DNA from: Sphingomonas pruni NBRC 15498
GTDB lineage: Bacteria > Pseudomonadota > Alphaproteobacteria > Sphingomonadales > Sphingomonadaceae
NCBI RefSeq assembly: GCF_001598455.1
Contig: NZ_BCYZ01000010.1
Coordinates: 1 to 64,000, forward strand
DNA length: 64,000 bases
Direction: 5' to 3'
In this document: positions 2,094-32,497 of the stretch, in pieces
How the letters are laid out: every line of letters starts with the position of its first letter
Position numbering within the stretch: the stretch's first letter is position 1
The notes under the pieces: generated by a model
Told to the model about the DNA's origin: nothing
What the model saw: only the letters and a program-made list of their open reading frames with translations
Database searches by the model: none
Position numbers and translations under genes: made by a program

Positions 2094-2318
2094 ATGCCCG
2101 ATGTTGACGACCGCGCCGCCAAGGCGCGTACGAGCTGTCCGTTTCTGACCGCCAAGCAGGCGGCCTACCATCTCGGGCTGGCGGCCAGTTCGATGAAAGG
2201 GCTGCGCGCCAGGGGCAGGGGGCCGCGGTGCCGCCTCCACGGCCGTGCCTGGTATTATCATATCGACGATCTCGAGGCGTGGTCCCTCGCGCAAGTCCGG
2301 GGCGAAGGTCGTGATTGA
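2094..2318 (+). CDS. Helix-turn-helix DNA-binding protein
   Basis: A 74-residue protein with a MerR/excisionase-like helix-turn-helix (FLTAKQAAYHLGL, about residues 17-29) followed by a wing containing WYYHIDDLEAW. This layout matches the small HTH_17 proteins that open many conjugative modules and act as regulators or directionality factors. It overlaps the start of the TraF gene by 8 bp, so the two are probably co-transcribed. The target site is unknown. Confidence 0.75.
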   Translation: MPDVDDRAAKARTSCPFLTAKQAAYHLGLAASSMKGLRARGRGPRCRLHGRAWYYHIDDLEAWSLAQVRGEGRD

Positions 2319-2880
2319 TCGGGTCGATCGTGCGCTCGCGAGCTTTGGCGACGCGCTGCGCCGGGCGCGTGCCCGCCGCCGCCGGCTGGTCTGGTTGAGC
2401 GGGCTCACGGCAATCGGGTGTCTGGCCCTTCTGGAGCCGATGGTTTTGCCATCGCGGCCACGGCTGCTCTGGAATGCCAGCGCGAGCATGCCGATTGGCC
2501 TCTATCGCGTCGGCCCAGCGCAAGCGCTCCGGGTCGGCGATCTCGCCATCGCCTTTCCGCCCGCCCCGGCAGCGGCGATCGCGGGGGCGCGCGGCTATGT
2601 GCCGCGCGCGGTACCGCTGCTCAAGGATATCGCCGCGATCGCCGGGCAGCGCGTCTGCGCCCAGGGCACGGTCGTTTCGGTCGACGGCTGGCCGGTTGCT
2701 CTCCGCCATCGGCTCGATCGCCGCGGCCGTCCTTTGCCATGGTGGTCGGGCTGTCGTCGCCTCGGCATGGGCGACCTGTTCCTCCTCGGGCGGTCGGCGG
2801 ATTCGTTCGACGGCCGCTATTTCGGCCCGACCGATCGACCGGACGTGCTTGGTCGCGCGGTGCCGTTATGGCTGCGCTGA
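2311..2880 (+). CDS. traF: TraF-like S26 signal peptidase of the conjugation system
   Basis: The 189-residue protein has one N-terminal membrane segment (LVWLSGLTAIGCLALL), then the S26 serine block (ASMPIGLYR, serine before MPIG) and the lysine block (PLLKDIAAIAGQRVC). These form the Ser-Lys dyad of TraF/LepB-type peptidases. In RP4-like systems TraF cyclises the TrbC pilin after its C-terminal processing, which fits the trbC gene 20 kb downstream. I chose the GTG at 2,311, which has a purine-rich GGCGAAGG upstream and overlaps the HTH gene. Its end overlaps the transglycosylase start by 13 bp. Confidence 0.85.
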   Translation: MIDRVDRALASFGDALRRARARRRRLVWLSGLTAIGCLALLEPMVLPSRPRLLWNASASMPIGLYRVGPAQALRVGDLAIAFPPAPAAAIAGARGYVPRAVPLLKDIAAIAGQRVCAQGTVVSVDGWPVALRHRLDRRGRPLPWWSGCRRLGMGDLFLLGRSADSFDGRYFGPTDRPDVLGRAVPLWLR

Positions 2881-3431
2881 GATTGCTGGCGATCGCCGTG
2901 GCATTCGCGCCAGTGCCGGCCGCTGCCCGACGCGTGGCCGACTGGCAACCCTATATGGCCGAAGCGTCGCAGCGTTTCGCTGTGCCCGTCTCCTGGATCG
3001 CGGCGGTGATGCGCATCGAAAGCGGCGGCCAGACGACGCTGGGCGGGCGTCCGATCGTCAGCCGCGCGGGGGCGATGGGGCCCATGCAGGTGATGCCCGC
3101 GACCTGGGCGTCGCTGCGGGCCGCATTGGCGTTGGGCCAGGACCCGTTCGATCCCCATGACAATATCCTGGCAGGCGCTGCCTATCTGCGGATGATGTAC
3201 GACCGCTTCGGCTATCCCGGTTGCTTTGCCGCCTATAATGCCGGGCCCGCCCGATATGCCGCCTATCTCGCGGGGCGCCCGCTCCCGGCGGAAACCGTCG
3301 ACTATGTGGCGGCGGTCGGATCGCTGCGTACAGGCGATGCCGGGGTGACCGGGCGGGTTGGGTCCGGTGGTGTAGTGCGCGCGATTACGCCCGCTGCCGC
3401 CACTGTCTTCGCCATCCCGCCGCGATGGTGA
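2868..3431 (+). CDS. Lytic transglycosylase (SLT domain) for conjugation
   Basis: A signal peptide (LRLLAIAVAFAPVPAAA) is followed by an SLT goose-lysozyme-like domain. It has the catalytic glutamate in MRIESGG, then GAMGPMQVMPATW and FAAYNAGPARY, all standard family motifs. The product, 187 residues, would act in the periplasm to open peptidoglycan locally so that the mating channel can be built (VirB1 role). It is translationally coupled to the peptidase gene upstream. About 180 bp without a gene separates it from the giant cargo gene that follows. Confidence 0.9.
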   Translation: MAALRLLAIAVAFAPVPAAARRVADWQPYMAEASQRFAVPVSWIAAVMRIESGGQTTLGGRPIVSRAGAMGPMQVMPATWASLRAALALGQDPFDPHDNILAGAAYLRMMYDRFGYPGCFAAYNAGPARYAAYLAGRPLPAETVDYVAAVGSLRTGDAGVTGRVGSGGVVRAITPAAATVFAIPPRW

Positions 3432-3611: not shown

Positions 3612-6600
3612 ATGGCAGTGCCGGGCATCGATCCGCCCCAACAGGAAACGCGGCCGCCGCGGCTCGAAGGCTGGGACTGGCAGCAGCTCGAGCGCCTGAC
3701 CGAAGCATTGCTGGCACACGAACCCGATGTGGTGACGGCCAGTCAGTATGGCATTCCGGGGCAGACGCAGTTCGGCATCGACACCAAGGCCGAGCTGCAG
3801 GGCGGCGGCTGCCATGTCGCGTCGTGCAAGGCTCATGCGGCAATCGAGAAGGGCGATCTCGCCACCTGGTCGACGGCGTTCCTGAAACATTGGGACAGCA
3901 AATGGAAAGCCAAGCGCGTCGGGCGCTTTATCCTTACGACGACCGCGCCGGTCGCGCCCACCCATGTCGTCGACGAGGCCGACACCGAGCGCGAGCGGTT
4001 CCGCAAGGTCGGGGTTCAATATGAATTGTGGGGGCAGCCCCAGCTGATCGAGCGGATGCGGCCGCACCGCGGCATCGTCGCTCAATATCTCGGCACCGAC
4101 TGGGTCGACCGGCTGTGCGGGCCGCGGCAGCGCGAAGCGCTGCAGGCGCTCGGATCCTCGGTCGGGACCCAGCCGGTCGAGACGAGCCAGATCGCCGAAT
4201 TGCGCGCCATGCTATCGGGCGAGGCCGAGAAGAAGGTCGCGCGCGCGCTCGACGACTTGCGCGCCGGGGAGGTCGGCGCGGTCGAGCGCAGCCTGGCGGA
4301 GTTGCGTGATCCGCAATTGTGGTGCCAGCTCGAGCCGGGCGCTCAGGCGCGCGTGCTGCGCTTTGCCGCCTCGACGGCGCTCCATCGCGAGGACCTCGAT
4401 GGCGCCGCCGCGCTCGATGCCGAAGCGACGGCGATCCAGCCGGCGGCCGAACCGCGCATCGCGGCCCGGATCGCCGCCGTGCGCGACGGTGCCCGCGCCG
4501 GCCTCGCCACGCTCGGCACGCCTACGACCCGTGACGGCCGCCAGCTCCAGACGGCATTGTACCTGTCATGCGGCGATATCGACAGCGCGGAGGCGGTGCT
4601 CGCGCTCCTCGCCGCCGATGAGCCCGATCCGGAAACCACCCGGCTCCAGGCCTGGGCCCTGCTGATGCGCAACAAGCGAACCGAGGCGCTCGACCTCGTC
4701 GAGCAGCTCGAACGCGAGGCCGGACACTGGACCGCGTCGATACGCACGATTGCCATTGTACGCTACGCCGCCGCCTTGTCGCCGATGCTGGCGCCCGAAT
4801 GGTTCCTCAATGCCAGCCCGGTCGATTTCGATCTCGTCCGCGACGATGACGAAGCCCATGCCTGGCTAGTCAGCGCCACCACCGGCCTGCAGTCGCTCGT
4901 CGACCGCGGCGGCGATCGCGACGATCGTCACTGGCTGCTCGCCGCGCTTTCGAACCAGCTTGAGCGCCGCGCTGACGCCGAGGCGCTGGCGTGCGCGCTC
5001 CTCCTGAAAGATCCCGGCGATCCGATTCCGGTCGCCTGGTCGCTCTCGCGCCGATTCACCGTGGACCTCGCCGAAAGCCGGCGGCTTTATGCCGACCGTT
5101 ATGCCGCCGGCATGACCGAGCAGATCGAAGCCCGTATCCATGCGCTGCTGCTCGTGTCCGAGGGCGATACCGCCGCTGCCCGTGTGGCGCTCGAGGCCCA
5201 TCTCGCGGCCCAGTCGGGCGAGGCGCGCAGCGAGGCGGAGACCTGGATCGCCCGGCTCGCCGCTGATCTCGGCGAGGGTGATACCGGGACACCGGTGCCG
5301 GCGACCGACACGTTCGTCGACGACATCCAGGCCGCGCGGTCGAGCGGCGACTGGTCGGGGGTCAAGCAGGGGTTCGACACGCTCGCCGGGAGCGGCCAGC
5401 CGCAGACGCTCGCGGCGGCCCAGCTGATCGCTGCAGAAGGCCAATGGTCGATCCTCCAGCCGCACCGGAGCGCGATCCTTGGTTTCGCGACGGCTGAGGC
5501 GGTCCGCATCGTCGCGTATCTCATCGCCTCGACCGGCGTCGACGGCGAGCTGGTCGAGTTCATCGAACAACATCGCGCCGTGTTCCGCAACGGCGTGCCG
5601 CCGCCCGATGTCCGGCGGCTCATCGTCGACCAGCAGCAGAAGGCGGGCGACCTGGTCGGCGCACTCGAGACCGCCCGCGCGCTCAGCGCCGAATCGGGCG
5701 CGGCGGTCGACCGCCACCTCGAGGCGCGGCTGCGGGCGGGTATCGGCGATACCGGCGGCGCGGCGCGGATCGTGCGCGACCTGATGCGCAGCGCCGATCT
5801 GGCCCCCGACGCCGCGCTTGCCTGGGTCGAGACCTTGCGCGCGAGCGACATGACGCTCGCCCAGGAACTGTGGCGGTTCGCCGTCGAGCGCGATGCGCAG
5901 CGCCGCCTTGCCGTGTCGGCGTTCGTCCAGGCCTTCTCGATCGGGCTCGAGAATGAGGCAGCGCCCTTCCGGCTCGACTTCATGCAGGCCGCCGATGAGG
6001 GGACAGGGCCCGCCCGTAAATTCGATGTCGCCGAGCTGCCGGCCTTCATCGCCTCGCAGAACGCCACCGCCGAGGAGCATTGGGCGCTCTATCTCGACGG
6101 CCGCATCCCCGCCCATCTGCTCGCCGAGCACCAGAACCTCTCGCTCGACGCCCTGCTGCTCGAATCGCCCAACAGCGCAGCCGGCCCGCTCAAACTCCGG
6201 CTGTGGCGGAACGGCGCCCGGCCGCGCCATCTCGATGTCGGGCTGCCATGGTCGCAGTGGCGTCTGCACATGGATATTTCGGCGCTGCTCGTCGCCGCGC
6301 ATGCCGACCTCCTCGATATCGTCGAACGCCACCCCAATCCGGTGCGGATCTCGCCGGCCGTGCCCGCGGCGCTCGTCGACATGCATCGGCGCGTCGCACC
6401 GGCACAGCCCGCGCGCCTCGCCTCGCTGCGCACACTCGCCGATATGTTCGGCAACGGTCTCGTCGAGCGGGCGCGGGAGAGTGGCGGTCGCGTCGTCGCG
6501 CTGCGCGACCCGGATGGCGATCGGGACATGGACATGGATGTCGGCCAGCTGGTCGATGCCGCCTTTGCGGCCGGGGTGATCGACGAGGCCACGACGTTGC

Positions 6601-9600
6601 GTGCGCGCGCCGCAATGCCGGCGCCGGCCGCCGACCAGGCCGCGGTGACCACGCCGCTTGTCGCCGGCGACCGCCTGTGGCTCGCGGGTGCGGCCGCCGA
6701 GCAGCTCCTTGAGCTGGACCTTTTGTCCGCGCTGTGTCTCGGGTTCGATGTCGGGATCGACCCCGAGGTCGCGCGCGGGATACGCCATTATGTCGCGGCC
6801 GAGGAGGGCAAGGCGCGCCGCGCCGCGTTCCTCGACAGCTTGCGCGAGCGGATCCGGCTAGGCATCGAGGCAGGCCGGTTCGAGCTGATCCGGCGACATG
6901 CGGATCGCGAGGTTGATACCCGCAACCCCACGACCCTGTGTCTTATCGATCTGCTCAACGCCGAGCCGATCGACGGCGCGGTCGATTGGTACGAAGACCG
7001 CCAGCTGACTGGCTATCCGGCCAATAACAGCCATGTGATCGTCGAGCTGGTCGACATTCTCGGCGCGCTCGTCGCCGATGGCGTCCTGAGCGAGGCCGAA
7101 GCGCGGGCCCGATTGAGTCGCTTGCTCGGTGACGGGGCCGGGCTGATCCAGCTCGAGTCCGCCGACGTGGTCCCGGCAATTCTTGCGGCGCCCGTCGTCG
7201 ACGGCGAATTGCGCGAGACGCCTGCCTTGGTCGCGATCCGCCGCAACCGCGCGGCACACCGGCTGTTGGAGCCGCGGCTGAAAGTCGGGAAAAGCGACGA
7301 TCCCGACGATCACCGCCCCGACGAAACGCGCTTGGTGCTGGCCGATATGAGGCTCGCCGAAGAATGCCTCGCGGCGATCTGGTCGGACCCGGTGCAATCG
7401 ATCGCGAGTTGCGCCGCGCGCTCTGAATGGGTCTGGGCAACGCTCAGAATGGAGCGATCACTGCGGGCGATTCCCGAGGACGCCCCCGGCGGCGCGGCGC
7501 GCACGCTCGCAGCGCTCTCCTTCCATTCGGCGGTCGAGACGCTCGCGATGCCGGGCGAGGTGCCGCTTGGGCTGCGCCGCATCCGCCGGCGCGCCTTTGC
7601 CAACTGGTTCTGGCTAACGGCGCTCGGCCCCCACCGCAAAGGCGATCCCGACATCCTCGAGCGCATCGCCGATCTCTTCGAAGCGCTTTATCTGCCCCGT
7701 TTGACCGGGCGCGACCCAACCGCGACACGCCCTGCAGTCGAGCTGTCGCTGATCAAGATTCGCGCCGGGGCGCTGCCGCAGCCCTTGATCAGCGTGCTGG
7801 CGACGCGCCCGATCGGCCCTTGGCTCGGGCTGCACTCGAACGAGGTTGTCACTATTCGCGGCGCGCGCTTCGAGGCCGATCGCTTCTGGCGCGCCGTGCG
7901 CACCGCGCGTCGCTACGGTCCGACCAACGTGCGCACGCTCGAGGGCAAGAAATGCCGTATCGTGCGCACCGACAATGGCGTCGCGATCAGCGGAGCGGTG
8001 CGCGCGCGGCTCGCGGATACGCTGTGCAGCCTGTTCGACCCACGGGTGCGCCCGATCGACCGATATGATGAGTTGCTCGCCGAGCTCGAGCTGACCGCGG
8101 CCGATCTCGAAAAATTCAGGGTCGAGGGGCGCGCGGCCCGCACGCCCAACCGGCTGGTCAGCGCGCTGATCGCCGCGCGCAAGCGCAGCGCCCGCGCGGT
8201 CTATGGCGATCTCGATGCCGCATTCCAGCCCAATCTGCGCATCGCACTCGGCGCCTTCTACCCGCCGCCAGCGAGCGCCCTGCTGCGCTACCTGCGGATC
8301 GAGCCGGGTGACGCTCCCTTCACCGACCGGCTGCGCACAGCCGGTCCGCGCCTCGCCGCCGATGTCGGCGCGCGGATGGCGCTGCGCCGCTTGAGCGGTT
8401 TGCCGATCGCCGGTCTGCTCGGCCTGGCCGGACTTCCGCTCTCGCCCGAGATTCAGGCCGAGCTCGATCGCGCCGTGACGCCGATCCAGCTTTATCGCCG
8501 CGCCGAGAACGCGCTCCGTGACGCGCCCGATACGGCCGGACGGCAAGCGATCGTGCACGCGCTGATCGAAGCGCTGCGCGCGACTGGCCCGGCGCTGACC
8601 GCCATCCTGCGCTGGACTGTGCGAGCCTTCTGGGAGGATTCGGAATTCCGGGCGCTGGGCGCGGCCGATCGGCTGGCGCTCACCTGGGTGCATGCCAATC
8701 GCGTGCTCGACACGTTCCTGCGCCGCAACGCCGATACCGACTTACTGACCCGCTTCTTCACCGAAGGCCATTTCGACGAGAATATCGCCGATCGCCTCAA
8801 CTTCGCACGGTTTGGCGACCGCGACGCCGCGTCGTCGAGCGGGATGTCCGCCGATGCCTTGCTCTATCACGCGCTCGGGGCGTTGATCGGCGACGCGCCG
8901 ATGGCCGATTATGTCGACGAGGGCGAGCTCGACGATCTGGTGAACGGTCTCCAGATCGCCGAGCCCGATGGGTCGGTGCCGATCCCGGCGCTGATCCTGC
9001 GCAACTTTGCCGGCCAGAACCTGCTCGGCAGCTTCCTGACGGCCCATGCGCCGGCGCTCGATGCGCTGATCGGGGATCCGATGGTGAAGCGCGCGAGTCT
9101 CGGCGACGACGCGATCCGAGATATCAGGGCGAACCGCGAAGACGGCATCGCCTGGTCGATGCTGATGCAGCATTCGCGCACCGGGCTGTCCCCTGAGCAG
9201 GAGGCGTCGGCGCAGGCCCTGTTGCGCGACAGCGATCTGGAGGGGCTGTCGATGGGGGCGCGCGACGGACTGCCGGTTCCGCGTGCCATGATCCGCACGA
9301 TCGGACTGTTGTTGCCGCAAGCCGACCATGGGAGAGCGCTCGACGTGATCCGGGCGGTGGCGCGCGCAGCAGCGGCGGACGGCCTGTCGCCCTTGCTGTC
9401 GGGCGATCGCGAGGAAGGCAGCGCGCTCGATCCTGTCCATGAGCTGCTCGAACTCGCCGGATGCTATGCCGGGATCGAGGAAGCCGATCTGTTCGAGCGG
9501 TTCGAGGCGGCGATCGTGGCGGCGGTCGAGGAATGGCCGGCCGCGGCGCCGTCGTTGCGCAAGCTGGTCGACCGGCTGATCCGCAGTAACGGCGTGATCC

Positions 9601-9650
9601 ACGCCGAGGCGCTGTGGCGGCTCTACCTCTACCTCAACGCCCGTCCCTGA
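3612..9650 (+). CDS. Giant 2,012-residue protein with possible Mrr-like nuclease N-terminus; defence candidate
   Basis: Residues 1-170 resemble a restriction-endonuclease fold. QYGIPGQTQFGID (about 45-57) supplies a Gln/Gly-rich loop and the motif aspartate. HVASCKAH (68-75) supplies the lysine, but serine replaces the Gln/Glu usually two residues before it, so activity is uncertain. The remaining ~1,840 residues are Leu/Ala/Arg/Asp-rich and look helical, with TPR/HEAT-like spacing. No Walker A motif, membrane segment or signal peptide is visible. It lies between conserved backbone genes, where ICEs often carry cargo. The reading frame opens at a TTG at 3,567; I prefer the ATG at 3,612, with no clear ribosome binding site for either. 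I do not recognise a named family. A defence role is inference from architecture and position. Confidence 0.72.
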   Translation: MAVPGIDPPQQETRPPRLEGWDWQQLERLTEALLAHEPDVVTASQYGIPGQTQFGIDTKAELQGGGCHVASCKAHAAIEKGDLATWSTAFLKHWDSKWKAKRVGRFILTTTAPVAPTHVVDEADTERERFRKVGVQYELWGQPQLIERMRPHRGIVAQYLGTDWVDRLCGPRQREALQALGSSVGTQPVETSQIAELRAMLSGEAEKKVARALDDLRAGEVGAVERSLAELRDPQLWCQLEPGAQARVLRFAASTALHREDLDGAAALDAEATAIQPAAEPRIAARIAAVRDGARAGLATLGTPTTRDGRQLQTALYLSCGDIDSAEAVLALLAADEPDPETTRLQAWALLMRNKRTEALDLVEQLEREAGHWTASIRTIAIVRYAAALSPMLAPEWFLNASPVDFDLVRDDDEAHAWLVSATTGLQSLVDRGGDRDDRHWLLAALSNQLERRADAEALACALLLKDPGDPIPVAWSLSRRFTVDLAESRRLYADRYAAGMTEQIEARIHALLLVSEGDTAAARVALEAHLAAQSGEARSEAETWIARLAADLGEGDTGTPVPATDTFVDDIQAARSSGDWSGVKQGFDTLAGSGQPQTLAAAQLIAAEGQWSILQPHRSAILGFATAEAVRIVAYLIASTGVDGELVEFIEQHRAVFRNGVPPPDVRRLIVDQQQKAGDLVGALETARALSAESGAAVDRHLEARLRAGIGDTGGAARIVRDLMRSADLAPDAALAWVETLRASDMTLAQELWRFAVERDAQRRLAVSAFVQAFSIGLENEAAPFRLDFMQAADEGTGPARKFDVAELPAFIASQNATAEEHWALYLDGRIPAHLLAEHQNLSLDALLLESPNSAAGPLKLRLWRNGARPRHLDVGLPWSQWRLHMDISALLVAAHADLLDIVERHPNPVRISPAVPAALVDMHRRVAPAQPARLASLRTLADMFGNGLVERARESGGRVVALRDPDGDRDMDMDVGQLVDAAFAAGVIDEATTLRARAAMPAPAADQAAVTTPLVAGDRLWLAGAAAEQLLELDLLSALCLGFDVGIDPEVARGIRHYVAAEEGKARRAAFLDSLRERIRLGIEAGRFELIRRHADREVDTRNPTTLCLIDLLNAEPIDGAVDWYEDRQLTGYPANNSHVIVELVDILGALVADGVLSEAEARARLSRLLGDGAGLIQLESADVVPAILAAPVVDGELRETPALVAIRRNRAAHRLLEPRLKVGKSDDPDDHRPDETRLVLADMRLAEECLAAIWSDPVQSIASCAARSEWVWATLRMERSLRAIPEDAPGGAARTLAALSFHSAVETLAMPGEVPLGLRRIRRRAFANWFWLTALGPHRKGDPDILERIADLFEALYLPRLTGRDPTATRPAVELSLIKIRAGALPQPLISVLATRPIGPWLGLHSNEVVTIRGARFEADRFWRAVRTARRYGPTNVRTLEGKKCRIVRTDNGVAISGAVRARLADTLCSLFDPRVRPIDRYDELLAELELTAADLEKFRVEGRAARTPNRLVSALIAARKRSARAVYGDLDAAFQPNLRIALGAFYPPPASALLRYLRIEPGDAPFTDRLRTAGPRLAADVGARMALRRLSGLPIAGLLGLAGLPLSPEIQAELDRAVTPIQLYRRAENALRDAPDTAGRQAIVHALIEALRATGPALTAILRWTVRAFWEDSEFRALGAADRLALTWVHANRVLDTFLRRNADTDLLTRFFTEGHFDENIADRLNFARFGDRDAASSSGMSADALLYHALGALIGDAPMADYVDEGELDDLVNGLQIAEPDGSVPIPALILRNFAGQNLLGSFLTAHAPALDALIGDPMVKRASLGDDAIRDIRANREDGIAWSMLMQHSRTGLSPEQEASAQALLRDSDLEGLSMGARDGLPVPRAMIRTIGLLLPQADHGRALDVIRAVARAAAADGLSPLLSGDREEGSALDPVHELLELAGCYAGIEEADLFERFEAAIVAAVEEWPAAAPSLRKLVDRLIRSNGVIHAEALWRLYLYLNARP

Positions 9651-10270
9651 TCATTTATGGTCTCGCGCCTCGCGGGCTGGCCGCCCGCGACCGCCGCTCT
9701 ATGGCGCTGGCGCATGGCGCCGCGCCACCGAGCCCCTGGACGGGTCTCGGCCGAAGGTGACGATCGGACTGGCGGGTCGGCTGACGCCGACCTTGGTGGA
9801 GCGGGGCTGAGGACGCGTTCTGGCGCCGCGCTGCGCTTGCCGCCAGGGAACGGCGCCTGACGAAAAGGGCCCCGCCGGCACACCGGCCGCGCGGCCGGGC
9901 GGGGCGCCCGGTTTCGCTGGCGGACGACAGGCCCCGTCCGCTGGCGCGAAGCCCGGTTCGACCCCGCTGATCCGCCCGTGCGGCGCGGAGGTCCGTTTTT
10001 GTCCGGGGCGGCAGAGCCGCCATCAAGCGGTCGCCGCGCGGGCGCGGCGGCGTTGTGGTCGCCCCCGGTCAAGCGCGGGTGGGCGGCGCTCCCGCCTAGG
10101 CGCGGCCGCGGGCGCGGCAAGCCGGCGCTACGCGCCGGCTCCTCCATTGCATTACGGTCCTGATCGGATGCCGCCCCCGCTCGGGGCCGCGCCTTTCTGG
10201 TCGCTGGTTGCCGCCCACCCCCGCTTTCCCGGGGGCCTGCTGGGTTCGGGGCGGGATCGGAGGCACGGAC
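9651..10270. other. GC-rich intergenic region with hairpins, no gene seen
   Basis: These 620 bases carry no convincing coding frame: the open frames are short, arginine- and proline-rich and lack family matches. The sequence is extremely GC-rich and dense in short inverted repeats. The clearest is a perfect 9-bp hairpin with a TAC loop at 10,120-10,140. The last 15 bases contain the GGAGG ribosome binding site of ardC. It may hold the ardC promoter and leader. Confidence 0.5.
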
Positions 10271-11284
10271 GTGGCACAGGCAACCAACCGCAGCGCGCGG
10301 CGCGCGCGCAGGACCCGCACAACGGCGAACGCGCGCGCGCATGCGCCGCGCGTCAATATCTATGACGAGGCGACGCAGCGCATCATCGCCGAACTCGAGG
10401 CCGGGACCGTCCCATGGGTGCGGCCGTGGGGTGGGGTCGCGGCGGGCCAGCCCGGTCTGCCGGTCAACGCCACCACCGGGCGGTCTTATTCGGGGATCAA
10501 TATCCTGATCCTGTGGGGCGCGGTCATCGCCGCCGACTATCCCAGTCAGGGCTGGCTCACCTTCCGCCAAGCGCTCGACGCAGGCGGGTCGGTCCGAAAG
10601 GGCGAGAAGGGGACCGGCATCGTCTATGCCGACCGCTTCACCCCCCGTGATTCAAAGGAATCGCTCCGGGGGAGCGATTCCGGTGATCGCGCCGAAAAGG
10701 CGCGCGCCGCCAATGATGGCGGCGACGCGCGCGTGGTGCCGTTCCTCAAACGCTTCACCGTGTTCAACGTCGCGCAATGCGAGGGTCTGCCCGACCGCTA
10801 CGCCGCCACCCCGCCACCCTTGCCGCCGCAAGCCCTGATCCCCGCCGCCGAAGAAGTGATCGCCGGAAGCGGGGTCGGATTTCGCATCGGCGGCGACCGC
10901 GCGTTCTATGCGCCCGGCCCCGATCTGGTCTGCGTTCCCCCGCAGCCCGCCTTCTTCGAGGCGCTCGATTATTACCGGGTCGCCTTGCACGAACTGACCC
11001 ACGCCACCGGTCATCCGGCCCGGCTCGCGCGCAACCAGACGGGCGCGTTCGGGTCGAAAGACTATGCCCGCGAGGAACTGGTCGCCGAAATGGGCTCGGC
11101 CTTCCTGTGCGCGGCGCTCGGCATCGTCCCGACCTTGCGCCATGCCGACTATCTCGCCTCATGGCTTGAGGTGCTGCGCGAGGACAATCGCGCGGTCGTC
11201 CGCGCGGCAAGTGCGGCGAGCAAGGCCGCCGACTGGCTGCTCACCCGCCGCGCGCAGGAAGCGGAGGCGGCCCAATGCGCTTGA
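10271..11284 (+). CDS. ardC: ArdC-like antirestriction protein
   Basis: The 337-residue protein has an N-terminal ssDNA-binding domain (VNIYDEATQRIIAELEAG, then PWVRPW and NATTGRSYSGINILIL) and a C-terminal zinc metalloprotease-like domain with ALHELTHATGH and the downstream EELVAEMGSAFL. ArdC proteins protect incoming single-stranded conjugative DNA from host restriction. I chose the GTG at 10,271 because GGAGG stands 8 bases before it. A linker around residues 130-155 is longer than usual and contains a perfect DNA hairpin. The stop overlaps the DUF2958 gene by 10 bp. Confidence 0.9.
   Translation: MAQATNRSARRARRTRTTANARAHAPRVNIYDEATQRIIAELEAGTVPWVRPWGGVAAGQPGLPVNATTGRSYSGINILILWGAVIAADYPSQGWLTFRQALDAGGSVRKGEKGTGIVYADRFTPRDSKESLRGSDSGDRAEKARAANDGGDARVVPFLKRFTVFNVAQCEGLPDRYAATPPPLPPQALIPAAEEVIAGSGVGFRIGGDRAFYAPGPDLVCVPPQPAFFEALDYYRVALHELTHATGHPARLARNQTGAFGSKDYAREELVAEMGSAFLCAALGIVPTLRHADYLASWLEVLREDNRAVVRAASAASKAADWLLTRRAQEAEAAQCA
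10657..10681. repeat. Perfect 11-bp inverted repeat inside ardC
   Basis: GGAATCGCTCC at 10,657-10,667 pairs with GGAGCGATTCC at 10,671-10,681 across a 3-base loop. It lies in frame within the variable, hydrophilic linker between the two ArdC domains, so it can be translated without breaking the protein. Confidence 0.8.
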
Positions 11285-11685
11285 TCCCCGAGGCCATGCG
11301 ACTTGCGCTGCGCGCCAACGCCATCGCGCATCACGATGCGCAGCTATTCGGCCACGTCGACCTTGACCCCGCGCCGGTCGTCAAACTCTTCAATCCGGTC
11401 GGTGCGGCGACATGGCTCGCTACCGAACTCGACGAGGACGGCGACACACTGTTCGGCTTGGCCGATCTCGGCTTCGGCTGCCCCGAACTCGGCTATTTCA
11501 GCCTCGCCGAAATCGCCGCCGTGCGGCTGCCGTTCGGCCTTCACATCGAGCGCGACGAGGCATTCGCCACCGACGTGCCGCTCTCGCGCTGGGCCGACGT
11601 TGCCCGTCGCAAAGGCTCGATCATTCTCGCGCAGGCCGCGCTCGCTTGCCCGCACCCGCTTCCGCCCGATCCATCGGACGGCTGA
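11275..11685 (+). CDS. DUF2958 domain protein
   Basis: The 136-residue product matches the DUF2958 pattern: LIPEAMRLALRANA at the start, VVKLFNPVGAATWLATEL in the middle, then GLADLGFGCPELGYFSL. The family is of unknown function and is almost always found next to ardC and ParB-like genes on conjugative elements. It is soluble, without signal or membrane segments. The ATG overlaps the ardC stop, which implies co-expression with the antirestriction gene. A role in establishing the incoming element is inferred from context only. Confidence 0.85.
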   Translation: MRLIPEAMRLALRANAIAHHDAQLFGHVDLDPAPVVKLFNPVGAATWLATELDEDGDTLFGLADLGFGCPELGYFSLAEIAAVRLPFGLHIERDEAFATDVPLSRWADVARRKGSIILAQAALACPHPLPPDPSDG

Positions 11686-11809
11686 GGGCTCCCATCGAAG
11701 TAGTACTTTGATGGGGCCCTGACGCAGCGGGCGCGTTTCGCCCGCAATCCTAGCCGGTCCCGTATCAGTGGAAGTGGCACGGGACCGGCGCTCTTGAAGG
11801 AGCAATGCC

Positions 11810-13621
11810 ATGAAACTCGACTTTATCCCGCTCGACAAGCTGCATCGCAGCCATTCGAACATGCGTTTCGCCAGGAAAGCGCCCGACGTCACCGACATCC
11901 TGCCCTCGATCCGCGCGCGCGGCGTGATCGTGCCGATCATCGTCCGCCCCGAACCCGACGAGGCGGGCGCGCCCGGGTTCGGCGTGATTGCGGGCGACCG
12001 CCGTTACACCGCCGCCGTGCTGGTCGCGAACCACGTGGCGGCGGCGGGCGGCGATCCCGAGCCGATGCCGTGCGCGATCATGGAGGAAGGCGACGATGCC
12101 GCCGCGCTCGAAGCCTCGATGATCGAGAATATGGCGCGGCTCGACCCGGACGAGGTGAAGCGCTGGGAAAGCTTCACCCGGTTGGTCAAGGACGGGCGCA
12201 GCGTCGAGGATATCGCCGCGACGTTCGGGCTGCCCGAACTTGCGGTGAAGCGCACGCTTGCGCTCGGCAATCTCTTGCCACGCATCCGCAGCCTCTATTC
12301 GAGCGGTGAGATCGACCGCGCGACCGTCCGCACGCTGACCTTGGCGAGCAAGCGCCAGCAAGCCGATTGGCTCAAGCTGGTCGACGACCCGCAAAGCTAT
12401 GCGCCACGCGGGTCCAACCTCAAATCGTGGCTGCTCGGCGGACAGACGATCAAGGCCGACTACGCCTTGTTCGACGCGACCGACGCCAAGCTCGCGACCA
12501 TCGCCGACCTGTTCGGCGAGGACCAGTGCTTCGCCGATGCCTCGGCCTTCTGGACGGCGCAGAACGCCGCCATCGAGGCGCGGCGCGAGCAGTATCTGGC
12601 CGCTGGCTGGGCCGAGGTTGTGATCGTCCCGCCGTCCGAGCATTTCGCGACATGGGAATATGAGAAGCGCGCCAAGCGCAAGGGCGGGCGCGTCTATCTC
12701 GACGTGCGCGGCTCGGGCGAGGTCGTGATCCACGAAGGCTATGTCTCGCGCCGCGAGGCCGAGCGCGCCGCGCGCAATGTCGTCGCCGGCAGCGAGAAGC
12801 CCAAGCGTCCCGAAATCAGCTCGGCGACGCAGGCCTATGTCGATCTGCACCGCCGCGCCGCCGTGGCGGCGACATTGACCGAGCATCCCGGCGTCGCGCT
12901 GCGCCTGATGCTCGCCTTCGCGATTGCGGGGGCGCCGCTCTGGAACGTGAAGCCCGACCAGAGCGTCGCGCGCGACGAGGCTGCCCAGGAGAGCGTCGAG
13001 ACGTGCGCCGCCGAAACCGCGTTCGACGCGCGCCGCCGCGCGGTCCTCGCCTTGCTCGGCTGTCCCGAGGACAAGCCGACCGTCACCAACGCTTATGGCA
13101 GCGACGACCGTCATCTGGTGACGATCTTCCTGCGGCTGCTCGATCTGCCCGATCCGGCGGTGCTCGATGTGGTCGCGGTGGTGATGGGCGAGACGCTCGG
13201 CGCGGGCCATGCCGCGATCGAGGCCGTCGGTCTGACGCTGGGCATCGACATGGCGCGGTGGTGGCAGGCCGACCCGGCGTTCTTCGACCTGATCCGCGAC
13301 AAGCAGGTGCTGACCGCGATGGTCGCCGAGGTGGCGGGCCAGACCGTCGCCGACGCCAACGCCAAGGAGAAGGGCGCGACCTTGAAGAAGATCGTGACCG
13401 ATCATCTGGCGGGCGCGGACGGGCGCGCGCAGGTCACCGGCTGGGTGCCGCGCTGGATGCGCTTCCCGCCCGCCGCCTATACCGAGCGCGGCGGCGTGGC
13501 GACGGTCGCGGCCAATGCGAAGGTCGCCGCAGCCAAGGCGGCGGCGGAGGAACCAATGGTCGAGCGCGTCGATGACGTGGTGCCCGAGGTCGCGCCGGAA
13601 CCCGAGCGGCTGGCAGCCTGA
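11810..13621 (+). CDS. ParB/Spo0J-like nuclease-domain protein of the ICE
   Basis: The 603-residue protein starts with a ParB N-terminal (sulfiredoxin-like) domain: FIPLDKLHRSHSNMR, then GVIVPIIVRP, GVIAGDRRYTAA and the ENMARLDPDE motif. A KorB/ParB-type helix-turn-helix follows (SVEDIAATFGLPELAVKRTL). The long C-terminal half is not a typical dimerisation domain. Such proteins are standard in sphingomonad conjugative elements and may stabilise or regulate the element; CTPase switching is known for canonical ParB but not shown here. No parA gene is adjacent. The ATG at 11,810 has GAAGGAG upstream. Confidence 0.85.
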   Translation: MKLDFIPLDKLHRSHSNMRFARKAPDVTDILPSIRARGVIVPIIVRPEPDEAGAPGFGVIAGDRRYTAAVLVANHVAAAGGDPEPMPCAIMEEGDDAAALEASMIENMARLDPDEVKRWESFTRLVKDGRSVEDIAATFGLPELAVKRTLALGNLLPRIRSLYSSGEIDRATVRTLTLASKRQQADWLKLVDDPQSYAPRGSNLKSWLLGGQTIKADYALFDATDAKLATIADLFGEDQCFADASAFWTAQNAAIEARREQYLAAGWAEVVIVPPSEHFATWEYEKRAKRKGGRVYLDVRGSGEVVIHEGYVSRREAERAARNVVAGSEKPKRPEISSATQAYVDLHRRAAVAATLTEHPGVALRLMLAFAIAGAPLWNVKPDQSVARDEAAQESVETCAAETAFDARRRAVLALLGCPEDKPTVTNAYGSDDRHLVTIFLRLLDLPDPAVLDVVAVVMGETLGAGHAAIEAVGLTLGIDMARWWQADPAFFDLIRDKQVLTAMVAEVAGQTVADANAKEKGATLKKIVTDHLAGADGRAQVTGWVPRWMRFPPAAYTERGGVATVAANAKVAAAKAAAEEPMVERVDDVVPEVAPEPERLAA

Positions 13622-18522: not shown

Positions 18523-19362
18523 CTAGGCCGGCTTTCCGGCTTCGACATAATTGTAACCAGCGTCGGTGACCTCGTAGAAGTCGGTGCTTTCCTCCCTGAT
18601 CAGCCCTTGTTGTTCGAGGTTCTCGACCGCTGCCATCCACCGCGCGAGGTCGCGATTCGTCTCGCCCCTGCCATACGCAAATCCGCTGGTCTGGACCGAC
18701 TGGCTGTCGAGGCTTCGGCTGATGATGACGATGCCATCGCCGCCGGCGGCAGCGCGCAGCAACGTGTCGCCATGTTCGCTCAGCGCGATCGGCGCGTCGC
18801 GCAGGCCGTCCTCGAAGAACTGGACAAGATCGATCTCGGTGTGACCGCGGATATAGCCATTGTTCTGGAGCATCTGCTGAAGATGGCGGCGAAAGTCGTC
18901 CTTGAACGCGGCAACGCTCGCATAAGAGGCGACGAGCCCCTTGGCTTGCGCCCAGCTGCGAAACTCCTTCACGGCAGCATATTGGTTCGGGTCGACGCTG
19001 CCGGGGCTGACGGGCGCATCGGAGAAATAGAGCATCACGGGTTTTCCCGTCTGATGGTGTTCCTGAACCTCTTCCACCGTGCCGCTGCTCGCCTTGCCGG
19101 TCGGCGTACCGAGCCGCGTCCAGAAGATTCCGACGACGACGTCGGCATGTGCGAGCACGCGATCGTTGATCATTTGCTGAGGCCGGCCGTCCAGTTCCGG
19201 CGACGCATGCGTGTCCCAGCCGATCGGCAACAGCACGACTTGCTTGTCGCGCGCGTGAACCGCGTTCCACTCGGCAATGACGTCACGAACGATGTCACGC
19301 TCCGCGCTCACGTCGCCGGGCGATGCGATCATCACCTCGATCACTTTCGCATCATAGGGCAT
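18523..19362 (-). CDS. DUF4062/TIR-like protein with winged-helix C-terminus
   Basis: Residues 5-110 match the DUF4062 (TIR-like) pattern: VMIASPGDVSAERDIVRDV, LPIGWDTHASPEL, VVVGIFWTRLGTPTGKASSGTVEEV and PVMLYFSD. The glutamates in SGTVEEV sit where TIR and nucleoside-deoxyribosyltransferase folds place a catalytic Glu. The C-terminus (LEQQGLIREESTDFYEVTDAGYNYVE) looks like a winged helix. The gene is reversed relative to the transfer operon and stands between the CopG and traG genes, as cargo would. NAD cleavage or a defence role is inference. At 279 residues it is a complete small member. Confidence 0.75.
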   Translation of the reverse strand: MPYDAKVIEVMIASPGDVSAERDIVRDVIAEWNAVHARDKQVVLLPIGWDTHASPELDGRPQQMINDRVLAHADVVVGIFWTRLGTPTGKASSGTVEEVQEHHQTGKPVMLYFSDAPVSPGSVDPNQYAAVKEFRSWAQAKGLVASYASVAAFKDDFRRHLQQMLQNNGYIRGHTEIDLVQFFEDGLRDAPIALSEHGDTLLRAAAGGDGIVIISRSLDSQSVQTSGFAYGRGETNRDLARWMAAVENLEQQGLIREESTDFYEVTDAGYNYVEAGKPA

Positions 19363-31145: not shown

Positions 31146-32315
31146 CTAGATCGCCAACGTGTCCAGGGCTCTCACGGCCTCGTCGCCAACGAGGTGGCCG
31201 TAGTGCCGTTCGATCATCTGCACGCTCGTGTCGGAGATTTGCGCGACGGTGAGCAGGGGAAGCCTGGCGACAACAAGGTCAGTCAGCACGCAGTGCCGAA
31301 GAGTGTACGCGGTCGCTCCAGTCGGGAGGCCCGCCCGCGTCACGGCGTCCTTGATCGGTACTTTCCAGCCGTCCTTCTCCCAGCGGCGCCCGTCATCGCG
31401 CGAGAAGATATACGCAGCAGGGAGCTTGCCCTTGATGCGCTCGACCAGGAAGTCGGACACGCTTTGTGGAAGCATGATCTGCCGCGGCTTTCCGTTTTTG
31501 TCCTTGCCAATCGTGAGCGTCCGGGTCCGCTTGTCGAAATCGCCCGTCCGCAGACCTGCGAGAGCACCGGGGCGTAGAGGCAGCAGACAGAGACCCCGCA
31601 GGAACGGGTGCACCTCCGGGTCGGCGGCTTCCAACAACTTCTTGCGCTCGTCGCGATCGAGATAGAGGTCGCGGCGGCGATCAGCCCCCTTGGCCGGCTT
31701 CAGCGCCTCTTGCCATGCTGCTTCGGTGTTTGGAGCACCAAGCGGCAGAACTCTCCCTAGGGCTGCCCGAAGTGGAACCATGTCGCGATTGACGGTGGCG
31801 GCGGACCGCTCCTTGGTCTCGTTCTTCCCGAGTTTGCGTCGACCGACGAGGGCAGGAGCGTTCTCCAAGCGCTTTCGCCATTCCTTCGTGTGCCGCCGAC
31901 GAAGCTTGTCCAGCTTCACCTTGGCGATGGGGTCTTTGTAAACGTGCCGTCGAAACACCCCTTCCGCGATCGACCCCGGCTTTTCCTCCAGATAAGCTCG
32001 ACAGGCGTCCGCGACGGTTTCGAGCTTCTCCGAAGGCGTACCGCCGGTTTCCACCAACTCAGCCCAGGCTTCGGCATCCTTCTTCGCCTGGGTGAAAACG
32101 TCGTTGCCCGTGAGGGCGCCGTAGTCGCCCAACGCCTTGCGGGAATATTTCCCCGTATCCTCGTCGAAGGCTCGAGCGATCCATGTGCCTTTGCCCCCGC
32201 GCTTGGACGGGCGGAAGCCGATGTAGCAGCCTGCGTGGAGTCTCTGCCAATGCGGCTCCTTGTTCGCGTTGGGCTTAAGCTCTTCGCGTTTTCCGATCTT
32301 GCTCAGGTCAGGCAT
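31146..32315 (-). CDS. int: Tyrosine integrase of the ICE
   Basis: A 389-residue phage-type recombinase. The C-terminal catalytic domain shows the first arginine in LLPLRPGALAGLRTGDF, a lysine in GKDKNGKPR, the YTLRHCVLTDL box (Arg340, with Tyr at the position usually held by His) and the nucleophile Tyr372 in ERHYGHL. The N-terminus has an arm-binding/SAM-like helical part. It would catalyse integration at the tRNA-Val 3' half 132 bp upstream of its start. The reading frame opens to 32,450, across AT-rich repeats. I chose the ATG at 32,315 because the sequence before it is translated repeat DNA. Confidence 0.9.
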   Translation of the reverse strand: MPDLSKIGKREELKPNANKEPHWQRLHAGCYIGFRPSKRGGKGTWIARAFDEDTGKYSRKALGDYGALTGNDVFTQAKKDAEAWAELVETGGTPSEKLETVADACRAYLEEKPGSIAEGVFRRHVYKDPIAKVKLDKLRRRHTKEWRKRLENAPALVGRRKLGKNETKERSAATVNRDMVPLRAALGRVLPLGAPNTEAAWQEALKPAKGADRRRDLYLDRDERKKLLEAADPEVHPFLRGLCLLPLRPGALAGLRTGDFDKRTRTLTIGKDKNGKPRQIMLPQSVSDFLVERIKGKLPAAYIFSRDDGRRWEKDGWKVPIKDAVTRAGLPTGATAYTLRHCVLTDLVVARLPLLTVAQISDTSVQMIERHYGHLVGDEAVRALDTLAI

Positions 32316-32335
32316 GCCAATCACCGCGATGCAAA

Positions 32336-32364
32336 CGTATGAAACGTATGAAACACGTATGAAA
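32336..32364. repeat. Three direct repeats upstream of the integrase
   Basis: CGTATGAAA occurs three times, at 32,336-32,344, 32,345-32,353 and 32,356-32,364, in an AT-rich stretch between the integrase start and the tRNA-derived end. Spacings of 9 and 11 bases resemble arm-type integrase or excisionase sites, or an autoregulatory operator. Confidence 0.8.
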
Positions 32365-32447
32365 TACAGGGGTGAACGGCGCTGAACAAGAGTGTATATA
32401 TTACATGTACTTAGCTGTCCGAGAATGTCCGTATTTGTCCTAGTTCC

Positions 32448-32497
32448 CATCCTTCACACGGGTGGGGTCACAGGTTCAATCCCTGTCGCGCCCACCA
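32448..32497 (+). other. Attachment site: 3' half of tRNA-Val(CAC)
   Basis: The bases fold as an anticodon arm (CATCC, loop TTCACAC with anticodon CAC, GGGTG), a variable loop and a T-arm (ACAGG, TTCAATC, CCTGT). The 3' acceptor strand CGCGCCC and an encoded ACCA follow. No matching 5' acceptor strand or D-arm stands before it; that sequence is AT-rich with TGTCC repeats. It is therefore a displaced tRNA half, the right att site of the element, with the crossover probably in or near the anticodon arm. Confidence 0.85.

Follow-up and report, generated by a model that had tools for sequence, protein, structure and literature searches.

Within the window analysed here (the whole stretch of 64,000 nucleotides, which begins at the start of its contig), one gene encodes a protein of 2,012 residues, and the question it raises is what kind of system a single polypeptide of this size could represent. 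An earlier note on this DNA put the gene forward as a candidate single-gene defence system, in which a nuclease would be followed by an NTPase-free repeat solenoid, an architecture that the note was unable to match to any named system. A match can now be made through homologues that score over the Pfam cut-offs: by sequence, the window protein is a divergent new member of the predicted TPR-GreA/B-C-PIN conflict family, and the idea of a candidate single-gene defence system is supported.

The family was described by Kaur et al. in 2021 as a conflict system whose constant core, made up of TPR, GreA/B-C and PIN, evolves fast, is preceded by one of 13 exchangeable N-terminal effectors (REase included) and is encoded mostly by standalone genes; the same authors proposed that TPR-GreA/B-C-PIN acts on hijacked RNA polymerase (PMC8195603). 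TPR-GreA/B-PIN was later placed among the anti-phage systems (PMC9503650). In the literature searched, we found no experimental or phage-defence test of any TPR-GreA/B-C-PIN member.

The gene and its N-terminal nuclease domain

The gene (P0001, 3612-9650, forward strand) is an intact ORF, with its ATG at 3612 and its stop at 9650, exactly as the earlier note had placed it. A full-length relative with 80% identity is present in a second genome, that of Sphingomonas sp. GM_Shp_1 (G065, or L020). Between these two genes dN/dS is 0.15 overall and 0.10-0.19 by domain (0.17 in the nuclease and 0.10 in the GreAB-C-like part), values which indicate that the giant gene is under purifying selection and, since they are low in every domain as well as overall, that the 2,012-residue protein is maintained as a whole.

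The N-terminal domain (residues ~1-170, 3612..4121, +) contains the pair of motifs from which a PD-(D/E)XK nuclease had been suspected, QFGID at residues 53-57 and SCK at residues 71-73, with D57 encoded at 3780-3782, S71 at 3822-3824 and K73 at 3828-3830. An AlphaFold2 model of residues 1-190, built from a nine-sequence alignment (pLDDT 84), shows the element order alpha, beta, beta, beta, alpha, alpha, beta, alpha, beta, and places D57 just before a strand (58-62) and K73 at the end of another (67-73). The top Foldseek matches of this model in the PDB are consistently PD-(D/E)XK proteins (EcoO109I, EcoT38I, SfsA, Card1, N.BspD6I, Hjc and Cap4), with no match below 1e-3. Pfam Mrr_cat matches 12 of the 16 homologous nuclease domains (best 2e-5), in one case, the protein G627, above the Pfam cut-off, and five residues (G50, Q53, G55, D57 and K73) are invariant in all 16. 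The motif pair is not a chance occurrence, given the invariance of D57 and K73 in these aligned domains and the PD-(D/E)XK fold of the model. Model, fold search and alignment thus agree on an alpha-beta-beta-beta-alpha-beta core with a D and an [E/Q/S]xK, and on this modelled and comparative basis the N-terminus is a PD-(D/E)XK (Mrr-like) nuclease domain; the lack of such a fold, which the earlier note would have counted as a refutation, was not observed.

The serine two residues before the lysine had been taken as a hint of altered or lost catalysis, which is unlikely: of the 14 full-length relatives, 8 have Ser at position 71 and 6 have Gln, and all keep D57 and K73. With Ser in 8 of 14, Ser71 is a branch-wide variant and gives no sign of a dead predicted enzyme.

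The same type of nuclease is also found on NACHT-type proteins (L016 and L017). The second of these, encoded in another genome of the same genus (G024, L017 7791-12713), is a protein of ~1,640 aa in which the same Mrr-like nuclease precedes first a P-loop NTPase-like region and then repeats; it is related to the window protein through the nuclease domain only.

The core and its place in the TPR-GreA/B-C-PIN family

After the nuclease, the earlier note had seen about 1,840 helical-looking residues that would form the repeat solenoid. Its statement that there is no NTPase stands, as the Walker A motif is absent from the protein and no NTPase family is matched in Pfam, and helical regions do flank the core; the solenoid is nevertheless an incomplete description, since an HTH, two alpha/beta PIN-like units (~880-1180) and a beta-rich, permuted GreAB-C-like unit (~1410-1470) follow the TPR region.

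The window protein itself passes no curated Pfam cut-off, and therefore its membership of the family rests on homologues. A tblastn search of plasmids returned full-length relatives that align colinearly: those from cyanobacteria and Rhizobiales measure 2,041-2,130 aa, and one from Azospirillum is longer. The cyanobacterial relatives pass HTH_upst_double_PIN at ~1e-20, and PF20698 (PIN-TPR-GreABC, described in Pfam as 'PIN domain associated with the TPR-GreAB-C-PIN system') is above its cut-off in G375, in Methylophaga and in G627, and just below it in Leptolyngbya and Agrobacterium. One of these carriers, the fused protein G627 (2,055 aa), has Mrr_cat, HTH_upst_double_PIN and PIN-TPR-GreABC each above the Pfam cut-off, and in profile-profile alignment the window family matches it from residue 22 to residue 1446 (99.9%, E 4.6e-34). 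Against the G375 set, the alignment extends over 1,081 columns (100%, E 3e-42). The system is split over two genes in G375, Agrobacterium and Methylophaga, and the second gene aligns with window residues from ~1393 on, weakly and colinearly (E 4e-5, prob 71%); because this second gene is above the Permuted_GreAB-C (PF24388) cut-off in Agrobacterium and Methylophaga, the giant ORF appears to be the counterpart of the two-gene arrangement in fused form. It is this colinearity with carriers of HTH_upst_double_PIN, PIN-TPR-GreABC and Permuted_GreAB-C that places the window protein in the family.

Along the chain, all on the forward strand, a TPR-like helical region (residues ~190-800, 4179..6011) lies between effector and catalytic core; both the window protein and its homologues match TPR weakly here, and the profile alignment with G375 is colinear. 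An HTH_upst_double_PIN segment (PF24407, residues 808-853, 6033..6173) gives the only suggestive Pfam match of the protein (E 2e-4, below the curated cut-off, as compared with ~1e-16 to 1e-21 in homologues). PIN-like unit 1 (residues ~880-1010, 6249..6641) and PIN-like unit 2 (residues ~1018-1180, 6663..7151) are both alpha/beta in a model of residues 800-1640 (pLDDT 70.5); the first is further supported by a profile alignment (99.6%), the second by PF20698 matches at the aligned region of the homologues. The window family aligns through the whole PF20698 region at 99.6-99.9%, so that PIN-TPR-GreABC membership is given by homology, the protein's own score being below the cut-off. The permuted GreAB-C-like beta unit (residues ~1410-1475, 7839..8036) is suggested by strands in the same model (~1412-1468), by a weak PF24388 match in a Gloeocapsopsis homologue which corresponds to window residues 1421-1441, by the split-branch partners and by a weak profile alignment of this region (E 1.3e-4, prob 54%); with probabilities of 54-71%, this tentative assignment is the weakest step of the analysis. 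Finally, a C-terminal helical region (residues ~1480-2012, 8049..9647) has no Pfam match and can be aligned in part with the second gene found in the split relatives. A fold search with the 841-residue core model was dominated by helical solenoids and was uninformative on PIN or GreAB-C.

Other searches returned little. No relative of the giant protein was found in viral contigs with an alignment query, and single-sequence searches with it gave no significant PADLOC match, nothing in the PDB (phmmer) and nothing in the genome scan; PADLOC has no model for a TPR-GreA/B-C-PIN-type protein. Matches from a PDB profile search (ankyrin designs, prefoldin, chemokines) were set aside as spurious, an NCBIfam SctY match as a weak TPR-type resemblance well below cut-off, and a G129 match as an unrelated TPR protein.

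The exchange of effectors that is reported for the family is also seen here. Besides the REase, homologous cores carry a caspase (Leptolyngbya), an esterase (DUF676, Agrobacterium) or a different N-terminus (Azospirillum), and the Leptolyngbya caspase protein lies inside an otherwise REase-bearing cyanobacterial clade with a support of 100/100. Neighbours differ among the homologous plasmid loci, as would be expected of a standalone gene with no conserved partners. In Leptolyngbya, the caspase homologue (L011 3342-5708) is preceded at a short distance on its plasmid by genes for multiubiquitin and ThiF (E1-like). A related gene in Rhizobium beringeri (L015 7920-14174) is seemingly broken, an N-terminal ORF of 799 aa being followed downstream by two separate ones (304 and 552 aa).

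The PIN units bear on whether the core would cut RNA or sense it. In the 16 sequences of the window branch, D888 of unit 1 (6273-6275) and D1129-R1130 of unit 2 (6996-7001) are invariant and E1065 is kept in 14, whereas the first Asp of unit 2 is replaced in all 16 (by A, N, G, T, K, S or E), being Ala1025 (6684-6686) in the window protein. Outgroup homologues (G375, Agrobacterium, Methylophaga and G627) retain that Asp. The acidic site of a PIN RNase is thus incomplete in unit 2; unit 1 retains D888, the one of its acids that could be assigned. On these grounds we infer that the RNase function of unit 2 has been lost, and, given that the loss extends to all branch members, the core may sense RNA rather than cut it. 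In the published prediction (PMC8195603), the PIN part would cleave the RNA extruded by the polymerase and the DNase would act as a back-up suicide effector. Such a dual-nuclease defence agrees with the invariance of D888, D1129 and R1130 and with the near-invariance of E1065, but is at odds with the missing Asp, and we regard it as rather unlikely for this branch.

The genomic setting

Immediately upstream of the giant gene are two conjugation-associated ORFs identified by Pfam on the forward strand, an S26 signal-peptidase-like ORF (2245-2880) and an SLT lytic transglycosylase ORF (2418-3431), and downstream are genes for the ArdC anti-restriction protein, DUF2958 and a ParB-like protein (10208..13621, +; Pfam), a block which is also present in related elements. 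Further downstream are a relaxase, a TraG coupling protein and an integrase (31146-32450). Of 150 related genomes, only 2 have the giant gene at full length, as against ArdC relatives in 87 of 201 genus genomes, and the block ArdC-DUF2958-ParB occurs with no giant gene in 12 related elements (some of which did not match all three). The giant gene is accordingly accessory, and the survey of homologues does not show it as a fixed backbone gene of the ICE family with a transfer role.

In G065, the giant gene is likewise directly upstream of an ArdC gene, and in a related element of another genome (G479, L029 4176-10358) that place is taken by the Druantia type III gene DruE (PADLOC E = 0), which suggests a defence cargo site beside ArdC. 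The earlier claim that the gene interrupts a conserved backbone holds insofar as it lies between the S26/SLT pair and ArdC; the local order, however, is rearranged. In relatives with both genes located, comparison by eye places SLT downstream of ArdC at a distance of ~3-8 kb, so the position of S26/SLT upstream of ArdC in the window (2245-3431) points to a rearranged or composite element. No clean empty insertion site was found in the relatives compared by position, and with this difference in SLT/ArdC order none can be claimed. Elsewhere in the window, a 279-aa protein encoded between the relaxase and TraG genes, on the strand opposite to its neighbours (18523-19362, -), matches PADLOC PDC-S60 over the N-terminal part of the latter (E 1e-27) and has a weak match to DUF4062; it is possibly a second defence-related cargo gene.

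This setting also invites a reading in which the protein would selfishly protect its own element or exclude others, by targeting competing plasmids or ICEs and not phages. Homologues are common on conjugative plasmids, and the giant gene adjoins ArdC and ParB-like genes, but there is no specific link to exclusion and the family is reported as mostly standalone (PMC8195603), so that we judge this reading improbable. Still less can be said for an Mrr-type type IV restriction enzyme that would read modified DNA via the solenoid: the Mrr-like nuclease domain would suit it, but the core is common to caspase- and esterase-bearing proteins, for which reason it is more plausibly a general sensor than a DNA-specificity module, and we give this possibility very little weight. 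A conjugation accessory or transfer role in the ICE family, suggested by the place of the gene between conjugation-associated genes, is the least credible of all and was rejected because of the rarity of the gene as compared with ArdC and because of the effector swapping, which suits a transfer protein poorly; the homologues, moreover, occur in unrelated contexts.

Proposed mechanism and comparison with known systems

The giant gene probably encodes a single-chain anti-invader system of the TPR-GreA/B-C-PIN type, and a defence function, as predicted, is likely. The architecture, the homology, the effector swapping, the mobile-element setting and the purifying selection are evident from sequence. 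In this reading the exchangeable N-terminal effector is the Mrr-like PD-(D/E)XK DNase, and the constant part comprises the TPR-like solenoid, the HTH, the two PIN-like units, a permuted GreAB-C-like unit akin to a factor that binds RNA polymerase, and the C-terminal helical region. As in the proposal of Kaur et al. (2021), RNA polymerase or its transcript would be contacted by the GreAB-C-like and PIN part once an invader has seized transcription; with the first Asp of PIN unit 2 lost, the core would mainly sense RNA or polymerase. Activation would then release the DNase, which would cut DNA, and the invader would be stopped or the cell arrested. A more specific version, in which the double PIN is now a non-cleaving sensor of RNA or polymerase that directly gates the DNase of the same chain (one NTPase-free protein leading from hijacked transcription to DNA cutting), is offered only tentatively.

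With an intact and conserved one-gene example that has an identifiable DNase, the prediction of 2021 becomes directly testable. Four invariant residues (D57, K73, D888 and D1129) are available for mutation, and the altered PIN unit 2 separates the RNA-cutting from the DNA-cutting hypothesis.

Among known systems, the Avs/STAND/NACHT defence proteins (such as the homologues in L016 and G024) share the plan of a Mrr-like nuclease at the N-terminus with a long sensor behind it, but the window protein lacks the NTPase and its sensor core is unrelated. With Mrr and the type IV restriction nucleases it has in common the PD-(D/E)XK catalytic domain of the Mrr_cat type, unlike them having S-x-K in place of Q-x-K and no detected Mrr-type DNA recognition domain. 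The DS-3 PIN defence protein (PMC13092281), likened to the window protein by description only, is also a one-protein defence system built on PIN, its one PIN domain being described as split between the termini. The closest likeness is to TPR-GreA/B-C-PIN itself. In the archetype GreA/B-C comes before PIN, whereas here two PIN units follow an HTH and the GreAB-C-like unit comes after them, seemingly permuted; PIN unit 2 is without its first Asp, and the protein's own scores are below the curated cut-offs. What the window protein shares with that family is a variable N-terminal effector (REase being among those listed), a TPR-like region, PIN domains and, tentatively, a GreA/B-C-type domain, and the organization as a single standalone gene.
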